From Apostichopus japonicus (Eukaryota > Echinodermata > Holothuroidea > Aspidochirotida > Stichopodidae), in contig NC_092570.1 of the NCBI RefSeq assembly GCF_037975245.1, forward strand, positions 7,049,001 to 7,113,000: 64,000 bases of DNA, given 5' to 3'. Below are positions 9,836-61,890 of this stretch, in pieces. Made by a program: the position numbers and the translations under genes. The notes beneath the pieces are model-generated. The model was not told where the DNA came from and ran no database searches. It saw only the letters and a program-made list of their open reading frames with translations. Each line of letters opens with the position of its first letter. The first letter of the stretch is position 1.

Positions 9836-12800
9836 TCAGAGCAAAGATTTCTCTATCATGATTTTGTCAAAGTTGTTTGGCGGAACGTGATAGAACTCGC
9901 TGAATTGGATGTCTAATATCGCGCTATCATCGACTATAGGGAAAAATGATAAGAAAGGAACAGTGAACTAACTCTTCCAAAAAAAAATGAAATTTAAACA
10001 GATTATATAGTAGCCTGTTTGATATTATAAATAGTAATGGTTTTCAATGCCTTCAATGCATTGACAGGATGCAATACTGTGTGTCTCCACTGTCAACCAT
10101 GTCTCTTACTGTCTGAAGACAAATAGTCAGCTTTTCCTATAAAACTACAGTTTAGTGGTCACAATATTCAAGCAATATTCAAGCAGCTAACTTAAGAGAA
10201 GTACAACAATGTGAACCCCTCGTTTGGAAGCAAATTATTCTACAAACAGCTATGTGAGATATCACCAATGATGTGCAGCGATTTGTCCAACATCTGTTTC
10301 TAATTTTTTATTCTTTTAAGTTTTTTTCCTAAATGCAACAGACCAAGAATACATTTGTGTGTGCACGTTAGAGATAACAGAACTAAATGCATTTACGCAG
10401 CTGTTTTGCATTTTATTCGTCAATTTACGGCAATCTTACTGAATATTGATCAATGTAAGATTTACAATTAAACAATAAGACATCCTTCTATATCTTCTCA
10501 CCAAATGACTGCATTAGAGAGTCATTATTACATCAATAATTTACATTCATATTTGTCACCCAGACACTTTTCATCTTTAATAGTGTACTAGTCTTTACTC
10601 AAATGTAACAAGCAAAATTAAGAAATTTCTAATTTCAAGTTGGAAATGAAATGTAATTCATTTAACAGAGCTCGAACAACTACCTGATCTGGCTTAATTA
10701 TCTGTAAGTTGTTTATGTAAGGGGAGGAGGGGGTGGGGGAGAGGCGGTAGTTTAAAAGAAGGGAAGTGGGATCACTTACCGTACAACGCAGGGTAGAGAG
10801 TTCCTTTGATACCAGTGACTGGACTCTGTAATGATTCGCCATTCTTGTAAAAATTCAGCTCTATGTGGTCATAAGTTACCCCCTATGTATCAAAAAAGGA
10901 AACAGAAGCTTGTTCAAGTACGAAAGCAAAATTTTAATCAACTTTGGACTCTTCAAAAGAAATACATGGATTGTTAAGGGGTTCAATATTGATAACATTC
11001 TACTTGCTCGGACTGTTATAAACACCTCCATCTAGGCTTTAGCAATATTTTTTGAGGGCGAATGATTTCGCCCTGTTATCGTTTCACTACAGGTTCCATA
11101 ATTAGACAAAGATTATTGTACCTTGCTGTCACAGTGTGACAGGAACACCAAAACTGCCAGACATTGTATCCATCCAATTAATAGAAAAATAAATTAACTA
11201 GAACATACAGGCTTTTTCCATAAACAAGATCCTTGATATAACAACTGATCCAATGAGATGGTAAATCAATTTGTCACTAACAAATGTTAAACAAAGCTAT
11301 ATCATACAAGTTTATGTGAATAGACACCTAGTGCTCAAGTTACATGAGAATATTCTAAGATGGGTAGAAATGTAATGGCTACTCCATGATATACATGTTA
11401 ACTACTGGGAATCACTTTATCAGAAATACAAACCAGTATGTCGCCCTCTTGAACTTCTATCCCCAGTTTTCGAATGCATTCCGACCCATGGTAGAGGGCG
11501 CCATCTGATCGAAGCATCCAGCATTCCGCGTCGGCTTGGTTGAAGCCCAGTGGTACTTTATTCAAATCAATCTTTCGAGTCGCTAGACCGATTCCCCAGA
11601 TTCCTGACGAGAAAAGAATGATGGGAAGAATAACAACATCAACAACAACAACAAATCTTTACTCTACAGGAATGGGTTTTTAAAGAGGTTAATGGAAGTT
11701 CCATGGACAAAAATGCAATTCTTTCAGCAAAATAGATTATCCAACGAGATCCAAGTATTGTTATGTGAACCCAGTATGACTAAGGCCTGTTTAATTACGA
11801 ATAGAAGACTAGATAGTATCAAAACTACAAATGATGTATATAGTTGAGAAGATGCTGACTGGTAATAACTGCTAAAAAACTTACCTGTGGATTGCACTTT
11901 CATTTCAAAGTAAGCTTTGTCTTGTACTAATGGAGCATTGGCAAGAGCGCCCCCAGTACCACATATTCTCCTCCCAGTCTTGACAATGACCACATCATTT
12001 CCTGCATTTGATGATACAAGGAAATCAAAAAAAATTATTGCACTAAAATCTGAGAAAAGTATACAACATGGTACAAAAATTGATTACTTGATTTGTTTTA
12101 GATCTCCAAAGATACAATATTAGGCAAGAGAGTCGTACCGGTTTACTGTGTACAGATCAGAAGCAATTAAGGAAAGCAGGCTTCACTGCCTTGCACATTC
12201 TCCCTCCCTCCATCCATCCTCCCTCTGTCCTGCATCCTCTGTCCCTCCACCCTGCATCCTCCCTCCCTCCCTCATCCTTCCTCTGGCCTCACCTTACCCT
12301 GGAACCTTTACACAGCTTTTGGGGATACTGTCTTGGATGTCATCAATCATTGAAACTTCAATGCAGCGTAAATATGCAAATATTCAATTTACCACTTTCT
12401 ATTTCCGGCAATGAATATATAACAAAGCTTACCTTAAAATGTTCACACTGCCATATGAGTCATTAAGTAGTTCAACTTTTCCTATTCCAGCTTTCCTCAC
12501 CACCCACTCACATATATTCAACGCAAGCCTTAACATTCTTTGAGGGAGACAAAGTAACATTGGTTTGGAGCAAAGAGGCAGACTGTTACCAAAATCTCAC
12601 TAAACCATCAGGAGATGGAGCTTAAGCTTTTTGCAGGGTAACGCTGGTAGGGTGCTCAAGTCTGAGGTCTTTAAGGGCCTGCCCATAACCGACTAGTGCG
12701 AGATTGTGGGAATTATTTTACACTAGATCAAATATCTGTTGAGGGGATTGACTGATGTGTAGGTTATTTATGTCTATTTACTGGACTGTTTGGGTCAGAT

Positions 12801-15682: not shown

Positions 15683-16915
15683 TGGCTGTGTTAATTAAAT
15701 TTCGGTGACTCATAAATTTTCGCTGAAAGGATACTGAGCCGATAATGTACATTCGGGTGTACGTATATGTACAAACCCCTTTCGGCGATCGTAAATAACA
15801 GAAATATGAATATGCAATCTCAGGAAAGAAAAACAACCAATCAAAAAAGTTTTCTTTATGGGGTTTCGCTTACTAAACGGTTGCTCATATGGGAGTTGAC
15901 AAGAGAAGAATGGAAGGTTCACTAGATCTTTCTGGTAAACATTTTCTAGCCTAGATGATAAAATTATAACTACCAGATACAAGAACAGGGAAACAGCAGG
16001 GTGGTGAAGAAAGTTGGGATCTAGGAAAAGTTGAAATACTTAATGACTCATATGGCAGTGTGCACATTTTAAAGGTAAGCTTTGTTATATATTCATTACC
16101 AGAAAAAGAAAGTGGTAAATTGAATTCACATAGCATCATGCTGTATCATGGGGAGGTACCATATGCCCCTCTCCTTGAGAAAGTTTGGTACGATCTGGGG
16201 TGTTTAGTTGGAAATAGGTGTTATATTTTGCAACTTTTGAAAGTAATTTATGTTCAAGAATGTTCCAATTATCATTTCCTTAATTAATGTCATTTTCCTT
16301 CTTTTTTTCTCTCCAATTCTTTGGTAACCCTCTGAATGCTTTTAGCAACCACTAATAGGTCGGACCCTCACTTTGAATACCAGGGTTATAGAGGATGGGA
16401 ATAGCTATTAAAAGCAGTCTTCAAGAAGATGAACTTCAAGAGGATACTACTGTAATACACAACCTGAAGCAGTCATTCATTGAAAATCATCCCTGAAGGT
16501 TAGTTCACAATAATACCCTTAATTTGTTTCTCTTCCCATAATTATGGTGCATACTTTATTACTTGATTTTTGTGATTTCATTTGTGCCATACTACCTGCA
16601 TTGGTGTGATCCTATCATAATAAGTGCCTATTCTAATACAAGAGATTTGATGAAACATGTGAACAAGGACTGTACAGAAGCTGAAACACAAATGGTATAC
16701 TTCGCTATTAGCATCTTTAATGTATCCATTCAAAAATCCCTTTATAGAGAGCCTTTATTGATATTATTCTGAAATGTTTTTCTTTTCTTGCTTCCATTTG
16801 TCAACAACTGTCCATCATTTTGCAAGAGTCTGACAAAGTGCAGAGAAGCAAGACCACCATGTGAAACTTATTTTTAAAACTTACATCCAATAATAAAATA
16901 CAATAACATAAATAA
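15683..16915. other. SPRYD7 upstream region and ARMC3 3' flank
   Basis: This intergenic interval separates the SPRYD7 start codon from the ARMC3 3' end. It holds the likely SPRYD7 promoter, without a clear TATA box, and the repeat copy at 15985-16126. Several AGCCTA/AGGCCTAACGTTA motifs lie nearby, on the gene side at 15120-15500. No gene was recognised. Confidence 0.5.
15985..16126 (+). repeat. Dispersed repeat, partner of 12372-12510
   Basis: Near-identical in inverse orientation to 12372-12510. The two copies flank exon 1 and most of intron 1 of SPRYD7. Small open frames on the antisense strand share the peptide FSGNEYITKLT with the other copy, but no protein family is recognised. Confidence 0.8.
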
Positions 16916-17664: not shown

Positions 17665-20600
17665 TCATATTTTCTGGTAATTGATGGCATCTGGTGAATC
17701 GGATAGAAACAGACTCCCTGGATGATGGATCAAATCTACGATGAACGGTTTTGGAGGAAACCTTGGTAACTCGGGCTGTAATAATAGATGGAAGAAAATA
17801 AGCGATTCAGAATGAGTCAACATACATTTATTGATGAATAGAAGATTAGCAAAGACGAAATATGAATGAGCTACTAATTATAAATCTAAGTACAAGTTTT
17901 ATATTTGTTTGTTGTAATACTGAGGGTTTAAGCAGATCAAGGAGTGGGGACAGCTGTGAGACAGGTAGCTGTTGTGTGACATCACAGATTATTGTTTAAT
18001 CCATTCTTCTAAGTCCACAAAATGATTTTCAATGGTTTTTTACCCTTGGATGACATTCAAAACTCTTTTTCCTCCAATTATTCTTCAATGAATTGTAAAC
18101 ATTCCATTTGAAGCAATAAACGTCTTAGGATTTCCCATCGAGTTTGATTGTGCTGCATCTGAGAAACTAACCTTATGATCTGTGAACTAGACTACATAGT
18201 CCAGTCACTTTAACTGATGGACCACACTACTTTTTTCAAAGGTCATTTCTCAAAATTTAAAAAAAGTGTTATAAAATTCCAACCTGGACTGATAGCAATG
18301 TGTGTTTTTAATGGTCTACATTGATCAAATTCAATGTTGTGCCTAAAGTTATCCTCTCATACAAGAGAACCCCATCTCGATATGTTTGTCCCTAACTTTA
18401 GATTATGGTTGATTGCATGTAACCTAATTCGGCTAAAATCTTCCACAACTCCAGGAAGTGTATCACATAAGGTGGTCTATGATGTCATTATGGTAGATGA
18501 ACATCAAAAGCATGACATTTCTCAATTTCTTAAATTTTAATTTTAAAAATTTTAAAAATTTTAAAAATTTTAAAAATTTTAAAAATTAAAATTTTTTTTT
18601 TTTTTTTTACATTTTTTACATATTTTAAATTTTCTCAATTTCTTGTTAATTTATCCTTGAAATGAAATACATTTGGAAGTTTGCTTAACTCCATTACCAT
18701 GATGACATCATTCACCTTGCTGTTGCCATGTTGTGCATGTCACAAAATATCTCTACAATTGTGACCAGACTCTATCTGGTGAACACCACAAGCTGTCTGA
18801 TGCAAAGCATGATTTATTGACTATAAAATAATGATCATAATAAAGTTTCCAAATTCACACATAATTACAATGACAGGAACAACAAAAATTATGCTGGCAA
18901 TTAAAAACGATAGAATTTGGATGGAAATGAGATACTTACGTTGTCATCGTCATCTGTTAAGAGTACTTCGTTCCACGCTCTGTTGTACTCTCCTCTCACT
19001 AATGTGCACGCAAGACCGATCCTGTCTGCTAACACCTAAAAGAATCATGATAAGAAATTACGGATTACTTCTCTCACTTGTCTCCATATTGAATAATTAT
19101 GGTACTTTAAAAGCAACAGGTAAAGACCATCAAAAATGATATCATTTACTAAAGGAAATTGATCCCAGTCCACCTATTTTAGATGTGTCCCACAAGATCA
19201 ATTTTCTGTCCCCCCGCCACCCCCCACCCCAGCCACCGCCCAAGGTTTAGAGTTACCGTTTTTGTCTACCTTTCAGAGTAGTGCTCTGTGGTGTGAAACC
19301 CTATGATATTACCACCAAATTAATTTTATGTCACCCCACCCTCCAAACCCCACTCCTATGGCATAGTGATACTGTTGTCAGGTACCTTGAAGAGTAGTGC
19401 TGTGACAGTGGATCCCTCAGTCTATTCCCACTGGATTAGTCATCACACCCCTCTCCCCCCCCCAACTCCCCCCTCCATCTTAGCATAGTGTTATTGTTGT
19501 CAGATTACCGTAAGGAGTAGTGCTCTGTGATAGTGGATCCCTCAGTCCACTGATACTAGATTAATTTCACGTCCCTATCCCCCTCCCTTCCATCTTATCA
19601 TAGTGATATTGTTATCATATACCTTATATAGTAGTGCTCTGTGGTAGTGGACCCATAAGTCTATTCACACTAGATCAATGTCACACCCCTATCCCCCTCC
19701 CTTCCATCTTATCATAGTATTAGTGTATTCAGTTACCTTATATAGTAGTGCTCTGTGATAGTGGATCCCGCGGTCTATCCTGCCGATCGGAATGATGTTA
19801 TTCTTCAACTCGTACTTCAGCTGACTAATGGATAACTCGTAGCTGAAATTTGAAAGCTGCCCTCGCTCGATACTGCCTCCCATTTTCTGACTGACAAATC
19901 TGACGAAAAAGGGAAACGGTAAATGATCATAAGATGAATCCTTACAACAGGTTTACCTGCGACCGTACCTGTTTGCTAAAACTGACAGTGGCAACTACCG
20001 TGAGAGTGAATAGTGACAATTTTCTCTTCAACTGTCACCAGTAGTGTCTAACGAAGCAACTATTACTTCATATGAAACACTACTTCAACCATATCTATGA
20101 TCAATAGGATGACAGCCTAGCCATCTATTAAAATCCACATCTATTAAACCCACATCTATTAAACCCACATCTATATAAGACCCACATCTATTAAAATCCA
20201 CATTGCACTCTGAAATACTCTATATTTCCAACCCATGCTGTTTTACAAACTGAAATTACACTTCTAAAATGTAGTTATAAACTCTAAAATGATTTGAAGT
20301 TGTTAAATCAACCCAAACATGACATCAGGTGATTAGATTATATATAAAGTGTGATGTCAAAGGTCATTTGAGAACAAAACTCCACACAGTTAGCACAGAT
20401 ATGGGGAAATAATTTATCCAGTTTCACATTGCAAAATGCTACACAAAATGGTAAAATTTGCTATAAATATCACTATTCTTGTACACAGGAACCACAGTAT
20501 TTACAAAGAGACAGAAACCAGAACATCCAAAACAGCTACACAAAATTTGAAACACTGAGTTATTCCCTGTGATAGTGTTAACTGAGCAGTGTTTGGGGGG

Positions 20601-23600
20601 TGGGGATGGGGAATGGCATGTTATATACCACATACATATCTATACCATTAAATCTATATCCTGACATGATAGTGTCCTGCAGTTCATTGTTTGCTGAAAA
20701 TTTATCTTCATATTTAGGTCAATAACCAACATCCCAATTTAGCAAGTTTTGAAACCATGAAGATGCAAATCTTTTAAAAACTGGTTAAATATTATGAATA
20801 ATGCATCTGGCAACAAACAGAGTTAGTATAAATGTCATCATGTGCAATTTGAACTGAAAGTGAAAATCAATTTATCCACCGAGGAAAATAAAAATTCTTC
20901 AAATAAGTTTGCAAGTTAGTTAAACCTTTCTAAAAAGGAGGAGAACAATAACAACCAAGCAAAAATTCCAGATTTATCATATTTTAAGACAAAATCATAA
21001 CCAATAATATTACAATATAAATATAGCAATAAATATTATAATAAATTTTTCTTTGAAAAGACCACACCTACTATGACCCACTCCCTGATATAAGGCATTG
21101 TTGACATGGTTACACTATGTTTACATTCAAGCAACCATATCTCAAGTTAGGAACCAGATCTTTGAGATTTTGGGGCTTTCAACCAAACCAGTATAAGCCA
21201 TTTTGCTCTCTTTCTCCCTGTATGCGTGTAGCATTGTCTACCACCCTGATGTTAATTCCTTTTCAACTTTTCCTCACAGAAAGTCAACTTACTGTGCCAG
21301 ACAAATGACCTGTTCCTTGGTGGTCGGTAGCGGGTGTATTTCATCTGTGACGGCGTTGACGTACTCTTCTAGTTTGGAGTCCGACTGCGGTTCATACGGT
21401 GACTGTTGCTGTGACAACAGTGCCTGCTGCTCGGCTAATCTGTCCGCCTCTAATCTCTCCCGTAACTCTCGTTCTTCCCGCTCTCTCTTCGTCTCTCTTT
21501 TGCTGATAAAAAAATTGAAACCAAATAACAACTTCAAAAGGATTTAAAGATGTTGAATAAAACCTTTTGAGACAAAACAAACTGATATATTGAGATAGAA
21601 TCTGTCAGTGACTAATGTAGATATAGATTACCCGAATTAAATTATCTAACCTCTCCTCACCCACCATCTCCACACTTACCTCTCTCTCTCTCTCTATCCA
21701 AAGAAGAAAAAAGAAAAAAAGTATCCTAAGAAAGATCCTATTATATCCATCAGTCATTTCTATGCAAACTTTAATGCATAAATGGATGGAACTTGAAGGA
21801 ATTCTTCTTTGCAGGCGAGCAAATTAAATACATTCAATAAAATAAACAACAGAGAAATAATGTCATCAAATTATCTTTCCCTTTTGCCTTGTAATGGATA
21901 CTTTTTTGTTACATTCACTTTGCTAAGCAAGATTAGAAACTAGACCAGGTTTCCCTTATCGATGAGAAACATCACAAAATCTTTCCGGTCATTTCAACTT
22001 GGACACAGAGGACAAGTTTTATATGCCTGACTTGTAATGACTGACTTACAAAGTGTGACTTGATACAATCAACAATGACTTGATACATCTGACTATGTAT
22101 CACTTATTAGTGATTTGTATGAACTTTTAACATTGCCAATGTTTTCAATTGATAATTCTTCCCTTGACAACTTTACAAACTTTCAATACTTCAGAGACTA
22201 TATTATTTGGTTTATAATTGATACAAAAAGTAGTAAACAGCATTTCATTTAAAGGAAGGTGTGGACTTGGGTTGGTGAAAGGGGTTGTGCGGTGCAAGAG
22301 GTATTCCTGAATCCTACCTTTTTACAGAGGACTTTGAAGGTCTCATACTCGTTTTGGAATCCACTCTGATATCGCCATCGGAAGGAATGGTTGGGACTGG
22401 AGTTACCGTAGGGCTGCTGTTGATTCAAAAAGAGGAAAAATGGATCAGTAACGATATAAGCTTACATCAGCAAAAGAGAAAGTACAGAGTTTATATCAGT
22501 ATCAGTGACACAAAACATTGCCCGGGCCATCGGCTTACAAGTTTGCATTCTTAACTACAATTCAAGTTATGAGAGCACTGTTATGTATGAACATGACACG
22601 GGTGTTGTCATGACAACAGGGGCTAATGGTATAAATGAGCTACAAAACATGTGTCCTTTAGCTTTACCTACTATGGACTTATTCTTACCTTCTTGGCACT
22701 CCACAATTAACCAGTATGGCAGCTTTAGCTTTACCTACTATGGATCTATTCTTACCTTCTTGGCACTCAACAGTTAACCAGTATGACAGCTTTAGCTTGA
22801 CCTACTATGGACCAATTCTTACCTTCTTGGCACTCCACAGTTAACCAGTATGCCAGCTTTAGCTTTACCTACTATGGACTAATTCTTACCTTCTTGGCAC
22901 TCAACAGTTAACCAGTATGACAGCTTTAGCTTGACCTACTATGGACTATTTCTTACCTTCTTGGCACTCCACAGTTCACCAGTATGACTGTTTTAGCTTT
23001 ACCTACTATGGACTAATTCTTACCCTCTTAGCACTCCGCAGTTAACCAGTAACACAGCCTTAGCCTTACCTATTATGGACTAATTCTTACCCTCTTGGCA
23101 CTCCACGGTCAACCAGTATGACAGCTTTAGTTTACCTACTATGGACTAATTCTTACCTTCTTGGCACTCCACAGTTAACAAGTATGACAGGTCTCTTTTG
23201 GTTCACTTCCCTCTTGCTCAGTTCTTCGAGGGTTTGAAACTTTTCATCCGGTCGGATCTATATCAAAGGAATCAAGAAATTTTACAGAATGACATCTCTT
23301 ACTACGGATGAAAAGCAGATAGACAAACATAACATTCAGTTGGGAGATTTGAAAATGCAGTCGGGGAATATTTTGATTGCTCCTCTGAGATCAGATTGCT
23401 CTTCCATACATAGGTTCATGACTTTATGAAAAGGCTTTGAAGAATCGTGCACAAAGAAACGTCTCATGCCGGTAATCTGACCTAGTTTCCAATGAGAACA
23501 GAAGTGTTAGACACCACCATCGATCCCAGAAAATACACACACAGCTTGCTACCGTCGGTAATTACACACTGGTGTACAGTCAATACATGCAGCTATGGTC

Positions 23601-26600
23601 AATAACCCCAACACAGTGTACATAACAGCGATGAACATCTCAGGTCTATATAAAAGATAGCAAGGTATCACGTTTCATTACTGTCTGCATTTTGTAGCGA
23701 CAAGAAGAAAACTTCACTTGCAAGCAACGGACAGTTAACCTATTCAGATGGTGCCACTCGGTTTGGGGCGAATCTTGATCGCCTTTAAATGGAGAATTTA
23801 TAAATTGGCCTCTCCCTCCTCCCCCCCCCCCCATCTCGAAATCCTGTGCACATCACTGGAATGAGCCACAAAGTGCTCGTAACATTGAGACTACTCTTTC
23901 ATCCTGTTTCCATCAGCTTAATCCAAATTCAACATTTTGACTCCTCCTACCTTGCCAGCATCGTAGAATCCATCTGATATGATGTCCGTGACTGCCAGCT
24001 GTCCGGTCAGACTGTACTTGGCAGAGAGCATATTATCCAACAACCTCTCCAGGGCTGCCTCGCTGAAACTGTTCTGTCTGGTCGCTGATTGCTGGATCTC
24101 CTTCAGGACATCTAGACCACTGAACACACAGGAAATAATGGCAAATAGTAATATAAGTTATTTAATTTACCTAAATTAATCCATTGTTAGTCCAAACGTT
24201 GCATATTTTTCACAGGATGGGAACATTTCCTCATTTCTGACCAGGTCATGTATGACAGTGGTCCACAACCTTTAGTCCTAGACCCAGAAATTTCCATGGG
24301 GTCTGAGCCATGACCCACCAGACCCCCACTCCTCAGAATCAATGCTCAGAATACATGAAAGCTAGCTTGGAGTATGGACTTGTCGGCAAAATTCTGAAAA
24401 CTTTAGATAAATTATATGACACCTGGAAAATTTCCAGTAACCCATTGAAAATTGGGGCCTTCTTTTGGACCACATCCTTTGGAACCCATCAATCTACAAT
24501 TACTCAAGTACTCAATATTCTAATTTGTTAAATTAAGTCCCACCAAATTTATGTAGTGTTGTTTGGTTTGCTTGAAAACACCTCTAGATTTTATGGAATA
24601 ATTTCATATTTTCTAGTGCAATTTGGTGGACTAAAGGAACAAATTTACATACATTAAAATTACACTCGCTTTCCTTCAATAATTTAGCATGATACGACAT
24701 GAATGTGGCATATTCTATGCAAAACATTCATTAAGAGCCATCTTGTCCAATAAACAGCCAGTTGGGACAATTTCCTAATGCTAATACCTCTCTAAACTGT
24801 ACTCCAAAATCATGCACTCAAAGCACTGGTATTGTCAGTACAAACAGTTCCTAACCTTGATCTGATAGAAACATGATATTCATACTGCTCCTACTGACAA
24901 TACGAGTGCTTTGAAGTGGGACAGAACACTACAGTATAGAACAAGTTGTTTCAACTGGGTGCAATAAAAAATATTCAAGACATGCATATTCATAGCTCAA
25001 ATGACTAACAAAGCCACTGATATCAATTTTAATGTTAGGCTAGAAAGCCTAAACAGACTAGATTAGGAGACAGTCCTTACAAGTTTCTAATATACAACCG
25101 AACCATCAAAACAAAAAACATTACCCAAGCTTGCAGAATTCTGTAGCTGTGAGTGAGTCGTTGGCACAGACAACAATTGCCCAGGATGCTGCTCTCCGAA
25201 CCTCCTGGTTACCGGATTCCAGAAGCTTTAGGAGAGGAGGCAGACCACCTAGACCTCTCAACTAAACACAACAAGCATTAGAAGACAAAAAAATAATAAT
25301 AATAATCATCAGTCCTTTTTTGACAAAATTTTAATTCAAACAGAGAGAAATTGTAACTTAAAATACAAACTTTATCTATTGCATGCATATCTTTAAGGAA
25401 CTTTCCGAGAGTGTGTGTACCACTGTCCAGTGTAGATGATAAGTATAACACTAAACATTGAGGGAGACCAGGCATAGTAGTTCAAGCTGCAGGAGGATAT
25501 ATTTTCATTTGTCATTTGTTAATTATCAACTCCCAGGCAATCCAAACAACATTGGAAAAGCAAATTATTTTGTTAAATTTTGTGATATTTTGTTAACTTA
25601 TATTTGTTAACTTATATTTTGTTTTTTGTTATATTTTGTTATATTTTTATCTTTTGTTATTATATTTTTGTTATATTTTGTTAACTTATATTAACTTATA
25701 TTTTGTTGACTTATATTTTGTTAAATTCTCTTCCCTAAAGAGTCTTCCTCAGTCGGAGTTCAAAGTCATTCTTCGCACTCCAAGTTAAAAGTGTCTGCCC
25801 ATTTAAAGTAAATATGCAGGCGATTTCCCCTTTTTGAAAATAAGCCAGCACCCACTGAATTTGCATCAACATTGAATAAACATTGAATATTCATGATCAG
25901 CTGACAGGACACCAAAGTTGACTTTGGTGGTGCAAAGCTTTTTTTCAATTTCCTCATTAAATACAAGGTCTATAAAGGTTATTTCTAACAACAACTCTGA
26001 TTGGTTGATATTAGAATAATAGGCATTTGTAAAATAACCCACCTGATTCCTCGTATCTACATCACAAACAAAAGAGGCGAGAGCTATGGCAGCCTTAGTC
26101 TGTACCGTAGTGTTACTGTTGGTGGACGGAAAATAAGGAACATTTTCATGTGAATCGGATATTATGGATTCAGTCTAGAGCTTAAAGCTTTTAATACCAA
26201 ACCATCAATCTTAAAGAAAACAAATTACATATACATTGCATACTTGAGAAAATTTATTCAGTTAATTTTTTTCAAGGATGATTTCAGGCAACAATTTAAG
26301 TATTGATATGAAAATTGCAGGCAAAAGTTTCTGAATCTATTTTATATTCAATGATATTGTTTAGATGATCTCTCTTGAGTTGAACAATGTCTTGAATGCT
26401 CCTTTAAAGCAAATCTGAGGGTGCCACTGGATCTATTTAATAATAAATATAATAATAAATATTTTATTTTAACTTTTGAGGACAGCCAATAAAGAATGTC
26501 ACAATCAATCAATTTGGTTGACAAAGTTTTTGCATTTTAAATTACAGACACTAATATTAGTGGAAGATTCTTAAGCCTTATATTATATAGAGCCAAGTAC

Positions 26601-29600
26601 GTAAAAAAAAAAATTAAATTAAATTTAAATTTAAATTTTTTTAAACTTAATTTTTTTTTAAATTTAAAGAAATAGTATGCATATATAGGAAAATTGCAAA
26701 TAACATGACCATCACTAACAAACCTTGAGTGCAGTGGATCAATTAAAGCCCCAACAACTCCTTTCTTCTGTATATCCGCTCTCAAAATCTCGTCCGTCGC
26801 CATGTTAGTCAGAACCTGTGCTGCATTAGCCTGAGTGGCCTCTCTGGTGGAACTGAGCAGGCCAATCAGGGGTTCCACTCCGTTCCTATCTCCGATCTCT
26901 ACGCTGTTTTGTACCTGGCCAGAGGTGAGGTTAGCCAGGGCCAAGGACGAAGACTCGGCTACGTCCAGGTTATCACTGTTCAGAAGCTTGATGAGAGGGA
27001 CGATGCCGTCTTCCAGAGAAAAGTGTTAAAAGGAGAAATAAATTTGTACAAAAAGAGCAGAAACGTATTTATAATAAAGGAGAGGAATATATTTCGCAAG
27101 CGGATTTTTATCCGGAAAGTACTTACAGATTCGTTCGATAATAATCCGACTATTTAACGCAGAAATAATGAATAACGTCATCACTTAATGGTTATTATAC
27201 TGGAATTATCGTTACGATCATGAGAACTGTTAGCATTAGCACCATCAGGAGGTCAAAAACTTGTCTGTGTTGTAATTAAATGCTTGTTGATCGGTGGTTT
27301 CGTTTGTAATCATATTTATTGATTTCTTTTTAACAGTCACGTATAAAGCATGTATTTTGAATATGCAAACAATACTAATGCAGATGTATACACAATATAC
27401 CAAAACTCTAGCAGTTAACATTTATTCATCGCATTCCATACTGTTTGTGTATTGTTTGTCAAGTTATATGAACCATTAGAATATATATAATATATGATGT
27501 ATAAGATATAAGATATTATATACAATATATAATATATATATATAATAGATGATAAAGATATTTGTGGATCTGCATCACTGACATATGTCACATCTTAACT
27601 CATTGCTCAGAAAAATAACAACCAAAGTCCCCTTTTTATTCCCACCCCCTGGTCGATCACAAACCCCCCCCCCCCGGTCCAACATGCCTGGCTACCTACC
27701 AAACTCGGCAATGACACTCCTTGAGGCTGCAGTCTCTGCCATGATAGCCAGTGCCTGGGCAGCGGAGGCCTGGACGTCCTGGCTGTCCGATTCAAGCAGG
27801 ACAATTAACGTCCTCTCTCCTTCCTGCTCGTGAAATATCTTGCAATTCTCACCTGACCGGAAAGGAAAATTGTGTTATCACGAGTAAATACCTTTAAGTC
27901 AGCGCACAAATTAAAAAAAACAAAAAAACAATGCATCAATGTTCACTAAGAAATAAATAAAATCACAGCCTGTGAAAACTAACAGTTAAAAAATCAAAGG
28001 CAAAATCTCTGTACTAGCTCTTCCCGCCTCCGTCCTCTTACCCCCTCCCCCAACTCTGTGCCACCTCCAATCCTAATCCATGAAAGAAACAACAAGATAA
28101 GTCAAAACCATCTTAATTATTCTTCTTATAATGGATCATGTGATTAAATTTAAAGGGTGTGAAGACTCGCGCATCTAATGCCGGTAATTTGACCTAGTTT
28201 CGAATGAGGTGTAACAGAAGTGTTAAACACCACCATCGATCCCAGAAAAATACACACACAGCTTGCTACCGTTGGTAATTAGACACTAGTGTACTGTCAG
28301 TACATACAGCTGCGGTCAATACCCACAGCACAGTATACAAACCATACAGCGATGGACCTCTCAGGTCCAGCTAAAGATAACAATTAAGGAATCACATTTC
28401 ATTACTGTCTGCATTTTGTAGCGACACAAACAAAACGTCACTTGCAAGCAACAGAAAGTTAACTTTTTCAGATGGCCGCACGCGGTTTGGGGCGAGTCTT
28501 CAATGCCTTTAAAGGCCATAAGGATTATAGCAAAATTTTCTTACCATTTCTGGCCGCTCTGGCAATTGCCTTGGCAGAGTTCATCTGGATTTCAGGGATC
28601 GTAGATTCGGCTGCGAATGTCAGCAACTTTTGTAGCCCTCCTGTACTCTGTATCAATTCTAAACTTTCTATGTCTTCCAGGCAATTGGATAGAACAAGAA
28701 GGGCATGGACGTGAAGTTCTTCAAACTCCTGTATCGAAAAAGGAAAAGATGGATTTCATTTCATTTGAAAATACAACATCACATATATATGCAAGTAGAG
28801 AAATGAATAATCAGAGAATGAAATTTCCTGAATGAAAATAGTGAAATTGAAGAACCAACCCTTCTTGAAATTCGTAACTTGAGTCAGTGCTCCCAAAGCT
28901 TGACCTACTCTCAAAATATTGATGTTCTCTGACTTTTTAATGGAGGGGTGGGGGGGGGTGAGAGGGAGGCCTGCAGGGAGGGAAATGAAATCAGGTACTT
29001 AATATTGTTTAATTGAAGCAACCTCCAGAAGGAATGTTGCATGTACCAATATTTACTGCTCCAGAAGAGAGAGAATAAACTGAATATGTGGTTACCAAGT
29101 ATATATTTTAAAGGAAGCCATGGGGATGTCCCACAGCAAGAAGAGTTAGTATGCCAATGCTCCATACACCTACTAGGCAGGAAACAGCATGTCATGCAAT
29201 TGGTCATTTTAGTACATGGAGCTTTCCTTTATAACACTCCACATCACAATACAACCCCCCCCCACCTCATTCCCCCATCCCTGTCCCAATAAAAAGGAGA
29301 TATGATAACTTACTTTAGTTCCAACAAACTCCAACAGCTTTTCTAGTCCCTCCAACTCTCTGAGGGTTTCTCTGTTGTCTGGGTCCTGGGTGCACAGAAT
29401 CAGACTCTTGAGGGCCAGCTCCTGTATCACCGGGTACTCTGACTTCAGAAGATCTAACAGAGGCTCAAGGCCTTGAACATTTCTGCAAAAAAAAAGAGTA
29501 AAATTTTCAGGAAATGTTAAGAAATTTTCAAAATAACTCAACCAGCTGCTTGATATTCAGGGATGAGCCTGGGTTAAAAAAAAATCACGGAACTTTGCAA

Positions 29601-38309: not shown

Positions 38310-38671
38310 TTAAAGGCAAGAAGACTAGCCCAAAGTGCAGCCGTCTGATAAAGTTAACTTTCCATTGTTTGCAAGTGAAGTGTTTTGGTGTCACTACAAA
38401 ATGCAGACAGTAATGAAACGTGATACCTTGTTATCTTTAGCTGGACCTGAGATGTCCATCGCTGTATCATTTGTACACTGTGCTGTGGGTATCGACCGCT
38501 GCTGTATGTACTGACTGTACACTAGTGTCTAATTACCGACGGTAGCAAGCTGTGTGTGTATATCTGGGATCGATGGTGATGTCTTACACTTCTGTTGCAC
38601 CTCATTCGAAACTAGGTGAGATTACCGGCATTAGACGTTTCTTTTTTTTTGCGAGTCTTCACACCCTTTAA
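38310..38671 (-). mobile_element. TTAA-type MITE, copy C (intact, inverted)
   Basis: Bounded by TTAA at 38310-38313 and 38668-38671, about 362 bp. In minus-strand reading it has the same termini and interior as copies A and B. It sits about 415 bp beyond the SDHAF2 stop codon, possibly in the 3' UTR. Confidence 0.9.
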
Positions 38672-42037: not shown

Positions 42038-55498
<13,461 letters not shown>

Positions 55499-61619: not shown

Positions 61620-61890
61620 CCATGTATACAAGATTTTCAGACTTGTTGACCGCAAATGACCTTTGACCTCCACCAATTTCACTAGGGTTCTTGTACTTAC
61701 CAAGCTGGCTCTGTATACCATGTATGAAGTTGAACAAAGATTTACGTTTACAAAGTTTTAAGACTTTGACCTCTGTTGACCCCAAATGATCATTGAACTT
61801 TACAGAAAAGAAAAGGGTTCTTGTACTTAGTAAGACAGATCCACATACCAAGCATGAAGTTAATCCACCATGAACTTTTTTAGTTACAGT
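61620..61890. repeat. About 130-bp tandem repeat with GTTGACCCCAAATGA core
   Basis: Two units aligned by GGGTTCTTGTACTTA at 61685 and 61815 (period 130), each with TTGACCTCTGTTGACC- and CCATGTATGAAGTT-like blocks. A related, more diverged pair is at about 700-870. Confidence 0.8.

Follow-up and report, generated by a model that had tools for sequence, protein, structure and literature searches.

Eight tandem copies of the end of an exon and its 5′ splice site lie in an intron of the ARMC3 gene, within the window analysed here (the whole 64,000-nucleotide stretch of DNA, numbered from its first base). This repeat, which we call array 1, is most likely a tolerated side effect of DNA duplication, not a switch. 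In the features tested it fits the description of the 'mirages', minisatellite-like duplications of exon/intron boundaries reported in amphioxus globin genes and named after work on Adh3 (PMC3087553, available text). We put at roughly three in four the probability that array 1 is such a mirage, that is, a tolerated tandem duplication whose authentic first donor is still used. Its copied donors are intact, use of any of the extra ones would meet a stop codon at once, and two further exon/intron boundaries nearby are duplicated as well. The features of array 1 and its exon are as follows (a slash marks a splice junction):

22655 to 23190, minus strand: array 1, eight tandem units of 66-67 bp, each with 34 nt of exon-like sequence and then 32-33 nt of intron-like sequence that opens with the donor
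23157 to 23257, minus strand: ARMC3 exon with array 1, 101 nt, acceptor ATAG/ATC
23151 to 23156, minus strand: authentic donor GTAAGA; TAA is read at once if unspliced
22683 to 23090, minus strand: seven extra donors GTAAGA, +1 at 23090 through 22688
23064 to 23069, minus strand: second donor-like site in unit 2, TAG/GTAAGG, score 5.8
21293 to 21502, minus strand: next modelled ARMC3 exon, beginning C + KRETKREREERELRERLEAD..., in-frame join; the joined protein matches PF14381

The ARMC3 label holds because Pfam matches to Arm repeats (PF00514, E = 9.6e-32) and to EDR1_CTR1_ARMC3_pept (PF14381, E = 2e-27) were obtained from the two gene halves, each joined separately, and the domain order that ARMC3 requires, Arm repeats followed by the EDR1/CTR1/ARMC3 peptidase-like domain, is present. 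Comparison of the C-terminal half with the PDB gave no convincing relative (three matches, E about 0.8). Nine ARMC3 exons were located upstream of the exon bearing array 1, which an earlier sequence-only reading had numbered exon 13. The tail of this 101-nt exon reads CCAAGAAG/GTAAGA with two codon bases left over at its end, and the exon joins in frame to the one starting at 21502 through the codon AG/C.

Tandem Repeats Finder places array 1 at 22656-23190 (period 67, 8.0 copies, 89% matches, score 872), in agreement with the eight tandem copies of exon end and donor described by the sequence-only reading. As that reading also had it, the repeat covers the final 34 nt of the exon: it starts at base 23190, 34 nt before the coding exon ends, and runs down to 22655. 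The unit length of 67 bp that it gave is correct for the array, with the exception of unit 1, which is one base short at 66 nt. Likewise, its donor coordinate of 23157 is sound as the last exon base, but the GT itself begins at 23156. Array 1 is not a chance pattern, because two block-shuffled copies of the window yielded zero local repeat pairs at the threshold used.

Every aligned unit keeps the donor, with G/GTAAGA in 8/8 and the +1 G at 23156, 23090, 23023, 22956, 22889, 22822, 22755 and 22688. The junction is AAG/GTAAGA in six units and AGG/GTAAGA in units 2 and 3, where the second base before the junction is G instead of A. Scored with a human donor weight matrix, six of these donors reach 6.0 and two reach 4.7, at least the 99th percentile of all minus-strand GTs and inside the range of the 20 other modelled donors in the window (-0.4 to 8.6). 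The seven distal donors all score 6.0 or 4.7; the seven extra donors that the sequence-only reading placed downstream of the real one are confirmed, and they are strong. Sites matching the additional TAG/GTAAGG of unit 2 are weak in the other seven units (-2.0 to 1.2). The exon reads IRPDEKFQTLEELSKREVNQKRPVILVNCGVPR followed by AG, and reading past the first donor gives G TAA; since skipping the first donor leaves the frame AG G TAA, every distal donor leads to the same immediate stop, again as had been predicted. Pairwise identity among the units is 85-96%. It is 88-96% among units 4-8, only 85-90% when units 2 and 3 are compared with the other units, and 96% between the exon unit and unit 5.

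The intron just upstream of the array-1 exon also holds one copy (23430-23789) of a dispersed repeat of ~340-360 bp that looks like a transposable element. Further copies lie at 28150-28512 and 38310-38671, with a part at 44135-44211; the three long copies are 84-85% identical, and the short part near 44 kb 94-96%.

The sequence-only reading had held that ordinary drift should erode donor cores and that the retention of all eight therefore needs explaining, an argument that loses its force once the unit is considered as a whole. Across the array-1 units, 44/67 aligned columns are invariant, and a preset group of six columns would show no variation at all with P = 0.07. The invariant run that contains the donor spans 8 columns, a length equalled in 55% of column shuffles, and other invariant stretches of the unit include GAGTGC and TCCATA. 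In the non-coding copies u2-u8, divergence is 0.119 per site in the exon-like part and 0.095 in the intron-like part (permutation p = 0.74). Donor conservation beyond drift in array 1 is thus not significant and its exon-like part is not slower, by a test whose low power (seven copies, ~10% diverged) makes it compatible with weak selection. Among the 23 variable columns, 18 are private to single units and five are common to two units; two of the shared-column pairs join units two apart (u5/u7 and u4/u6), consistent with duplication of two units as one block. Array 1 looks like ordinary repeat turnover, because its donor columns are unexceptional, its exon-like part is not slower, columns are shared between units and unit 5 is so similar to the exon unit. 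The plain alternative that the sequence-only reading had itself offered, age plus homogenisation, is the best fit, with donor columns that are not significantly better kept than the rest. An RNA structure that masks the donors was considered and dropped, since the predicted fold of the exon with array 1 is not unusual (z = -0.88; 5/20 shuffles fold at least as well).

A second boundary array lies further along ARMC3 and derives from a later exon:

19737 to 19899, minus strand: later ARMC3 exon, founder of array 2, tail ...ELKNNIIPIGRIDRGIHYHRALLYK/gtaact
19177 to 19769, minus strand: array 2, five units of exon tail + donor, the first four 113-125 bp; the far end of the fifth is approximate

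Tandem Repeats Finder gives just 19470-19778 for array 2, the wider limits coming from further repeat comparison. Its donors are GTAACT, GTATAT, GTAATC, GTACCT and GTAGAC, with GT kept in 5/5 and the remaining donor bases decayed. Identity to the exon copy drops with distance from the exon, from 83% in v2 through 75% and 60% to 53% in v5. The decay of the donor cores in array 2 is as expected without selection; retention of GT in 5/5 at 53-83% identity is something that a selective reading would also predict. In a first test on the non-coding copies, the exon-derived part seemed better kept (p = 0.0006 for v2-v5, 0.004 for v2-v4), and with a G-rich tract set aside these values became 0.037 and 0.061. 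Measured against the adjacent intron part, the exon part showed no difference (p = 0.15 for v2-v5, 0.50 for v2-v4); against the intron tail, p was 0.022 and 0.007, respectively. Circular shifts did as well as the exon part in 13/94 and 9/94 cases. For the exon-derived part of array 2, selection is unproven.

The third duplicated boundary is an acceptor and belongs to a neighbouring gene, an acyl-CoA ligase (Pfam AMP-binding, E = 2e-68) that we take to be ACSL-like:

47621 to 47816, minus strand: ACSL-like exon with duplicated acceptor, first exon base 47816, TTTCAG/CCCTGG
48158 to 48195, minus strand: intronic copy of the ACSL-like acceptor and exon start, 36/38 nt identical to 47799-47836

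There are two copies only, and the intronic one stands 359 bp upstream of the true acceptor. A 17-nt block precedes it; at the true site the same block is ~45 nt further off. Other genes in the window are a succinate dehydrogenase flavinator (Pfam Sdh5, E = 1.8e-17) and a gene piece that is presumably SPRYD7-like, for which there was no Pfam match.

These three cases stand out sharply among the splice junctions of the window. Each of 52 modelled junctions, comprising 45 plus seven (ACSL_1, ACSL_6 and five SDHAF2 junctions), was compared with 900 nt of adjoining intron-side sequence; the set rests on modelled exons, and further exons of neighbouring genes may be missing from it. Duplication was found at 3/52, all within 30 kb of one another and two of them in ARMC3. 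The Smith-Waterman scores were 36 for the array-1 donor, 31 for the ARMC3 donor at 19736 and 30 for the ACSL-like acceptor at 47816, with the other 49 at or below 13. After a low-complexity filter, the window contains eight local direct repeats and its two shuffled copies none. Three of the eight cover a junction (P = 0.08 for random placement against 49 junctions), and P is 0.012 when a junction has to lie within 60 nt of a repeat edge, a requirement chosen once the data had been seen. In all three duplicated junctions the copied stretch has its edge 18-34 nt inside the exon. That tandem duplication in this genome favours splice junctions, with the boundary (for example, through transcription or splicing structures) seeding the repeats, is a conceivable but doubtful extension of this pattern. 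Were repeats seeded in that way, they would form a permanent reserve from which spare donors, poison stops and new introns could be drawn.

The window also contains other repeats. A diverged direct repeat at 61644-61861 (spacing 130, 72%) carries a donor-like TTGGTAAGTAC on the minus strand and has no tie to a known exon. A 114-bp unit present 1.8 times at 2673-2878, not near modelled exons, has 100% identity; this duplication is very recent. An inverted pair of 127 bp (15999-16125 and 12382-12505, 91% identical) lies outside modelled exons.

Published mirages offer the closest parallel to these arrays. In amphioxus Adh3 and the globin genes BflGb6 and BflGb9, as well as in TnC and PGBD5, tandem units likewise span a boundary and carry copied AG or GT signals. 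The available text of PMC3087553 describes units of 10-160 bp, cases at both 5′ and 3′ boundaries, copied AG/GT signals, and unit numbers that differ between haplotypes with attendant length instability. In lancelet PGBD5, repeats of 60 and 108 bp occur at splice sites, with splicing that was predicted rather than measured, and the same source cites Adh and TnC as further lancelet cases (PMC3902484, available text). The unit length falls inside the published range, and donor and acceptor versions both occur in the window, as they do among mirages. Here the boundary-spanning units are those of arrays 1 and 2, the splice signals are copied in 8/8 units of array 1 and as GT in 5/5 units of array 2, and turnover of units is seen in array 1, where the closeness of units 4-8 relative to units 2 and 3 resembles the concerted change of mirages. 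ARMC3 and ACSL-like genes are not among the published cases found, and the present arrangement combines a pair of donor arrays in a single gene with a two-copy acceptor in a neighbour. The published mirages that we found come from amphioxus only. The window has 36.3% G+C with a CpG observed/expected ratio of 0.44; the G+C content of Branchiostoma is about 41%.

The amphioxus huntingtin gene also has tandem repeats, and the available text of that report mentions no boundary repeats (PMC2206037). Neither a boundary array in ARMC3 nor a genome-wide survey of mirages appeared among the matches listed from titles and abstracts of the open-licence literature, which is weak evidence of absence. An exact search with a 24-base pattern from the array-1 unit found nothing in IMG/VR or in GTDB contigs, collections that are not meant for animals, and a search of Rfam gave no match at the gathering score. 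Of 22 places in IMG/VR that ARMC3 exon peptides matched, a single one could be confirmed, along just 14 residues. It lies within a 520-aa open frame on a 6-kb contig of 67% G+C whose translation has no other visible likeness, and it was set aside as a chance match.

Array 1 would have arisen through tandem duplication of a stretch made up of the final 34 nt of the exon, the 5′ splice site and ~33 nt of the intron. The duplicated stretch would then have been amplified to eight units, and slippage or unequal exchange has probably turned the array over since. The first donor, at 23156, is most likely still the one that the spliceosome chooses, because the normal 101-nt exon results when the exon is defined from the acceptor at 23257. 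The extra donors would be tolerated, and at most a small share of transcripts would stop at once and enter nonsense-mediated decay. On this account array 1 probably lacks a function. Boundary repeats have also been proposed as seeds of intron gain (PMC3087553, available text), and gain by tandem duplication is described for ATP2A1, fission yeast and potato RdRp (PMC4974935, available text). Array 1 shares with those cases a tandem copy bearing the splice signals of its parent, but here the copies sit within an intron that already exists, there is no sign of a new one and, by inspection, the array-1 units are without a pyrimidine tract for an acceptor.

The same eight intact and strong GTAAGA motifs might instead form a regulated poison exon or decoy, in which the extra donors hold U1 snRNP or divert splicing towards a stop and decay and thereby tune ARMC3 output. 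A stop more than 50-55 nt before a junction usually triggers nonsense-mediated decay, and by this rule the TAA right after the exon, ~62 nt ahead of the nearest distal junction, would be distant enough for decay. Recognised poison exons and tandem alternative donors coupled to nonsense-mediated decay share this premature stop from a distal donor, whereas the array-1 copies are tandem repeats. Nor need intronic arrays be inert, because the C. elegans intronic minisatellite CeRep25B has been statistically associated with multiple, complex alternative splicing decisions, in a study that, in its available text, is not about copied donors (PMC4039745). We nonetheless judge regulation of this kind quite improbable. 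The donor conservation on which it leans is not significant, array 2 in the same gene has decayed donors, and duplication of an acceptor in the unrelated ACSL-like gene fits a sequence process better than regulation of ARMC3. Mirages in amphioxus Adh3 and globin genes are, moreover, reported as spliced regularly, as suggested by Adh3 data and globin RT-PCR (PMC3087553, available text).

An unregulated leak, in which several donors are used weakly, the aberrant transcripts are destroyed and a mild burden is kept by drift, is improbable as well and would be a shade of the tolerated-duplication account rather than a separate mechanism. It draws on the distal donor scores, which by the human matrix lie within the range of the other modelled donors, on the suggestion that boundary copies could act as cryptic sites (PMC3087553, available text), and on human reporters in which the sequence between competing donors alters the choice between them (PMC1877881, available text); the regular splicing seen by RT-PCR in amphioxus globin genes argues against it. 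That the assembler expanded or scrambled the copy number seems extremely improbable, even though arrays are error-prone in drafts and repeat numbers are reported to vary between assemblies or haplotypes (PMC3902484 and PMC3087553, available text). The 18/23 variable columns private to single units indicate that the copies are not machine-made duplicates, and the pattern recurs at two further junctions that have diverged to different extents.

Overall, the claim of regulation for array 1 does not stand on present evidence, and tolerated tandem duplication is the preferred reading. Eight near-equal donors in a row are a natural test of correct donor choice by the spliceosome. The three cases lie within 30 kb, two in ARMC3, and differ in divergence; they form a small series in which the less diverged array keeps intact donors, whereas the more diverged array has decayed donors. 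If the host is not a lancelet, mirages would extend to another branch.
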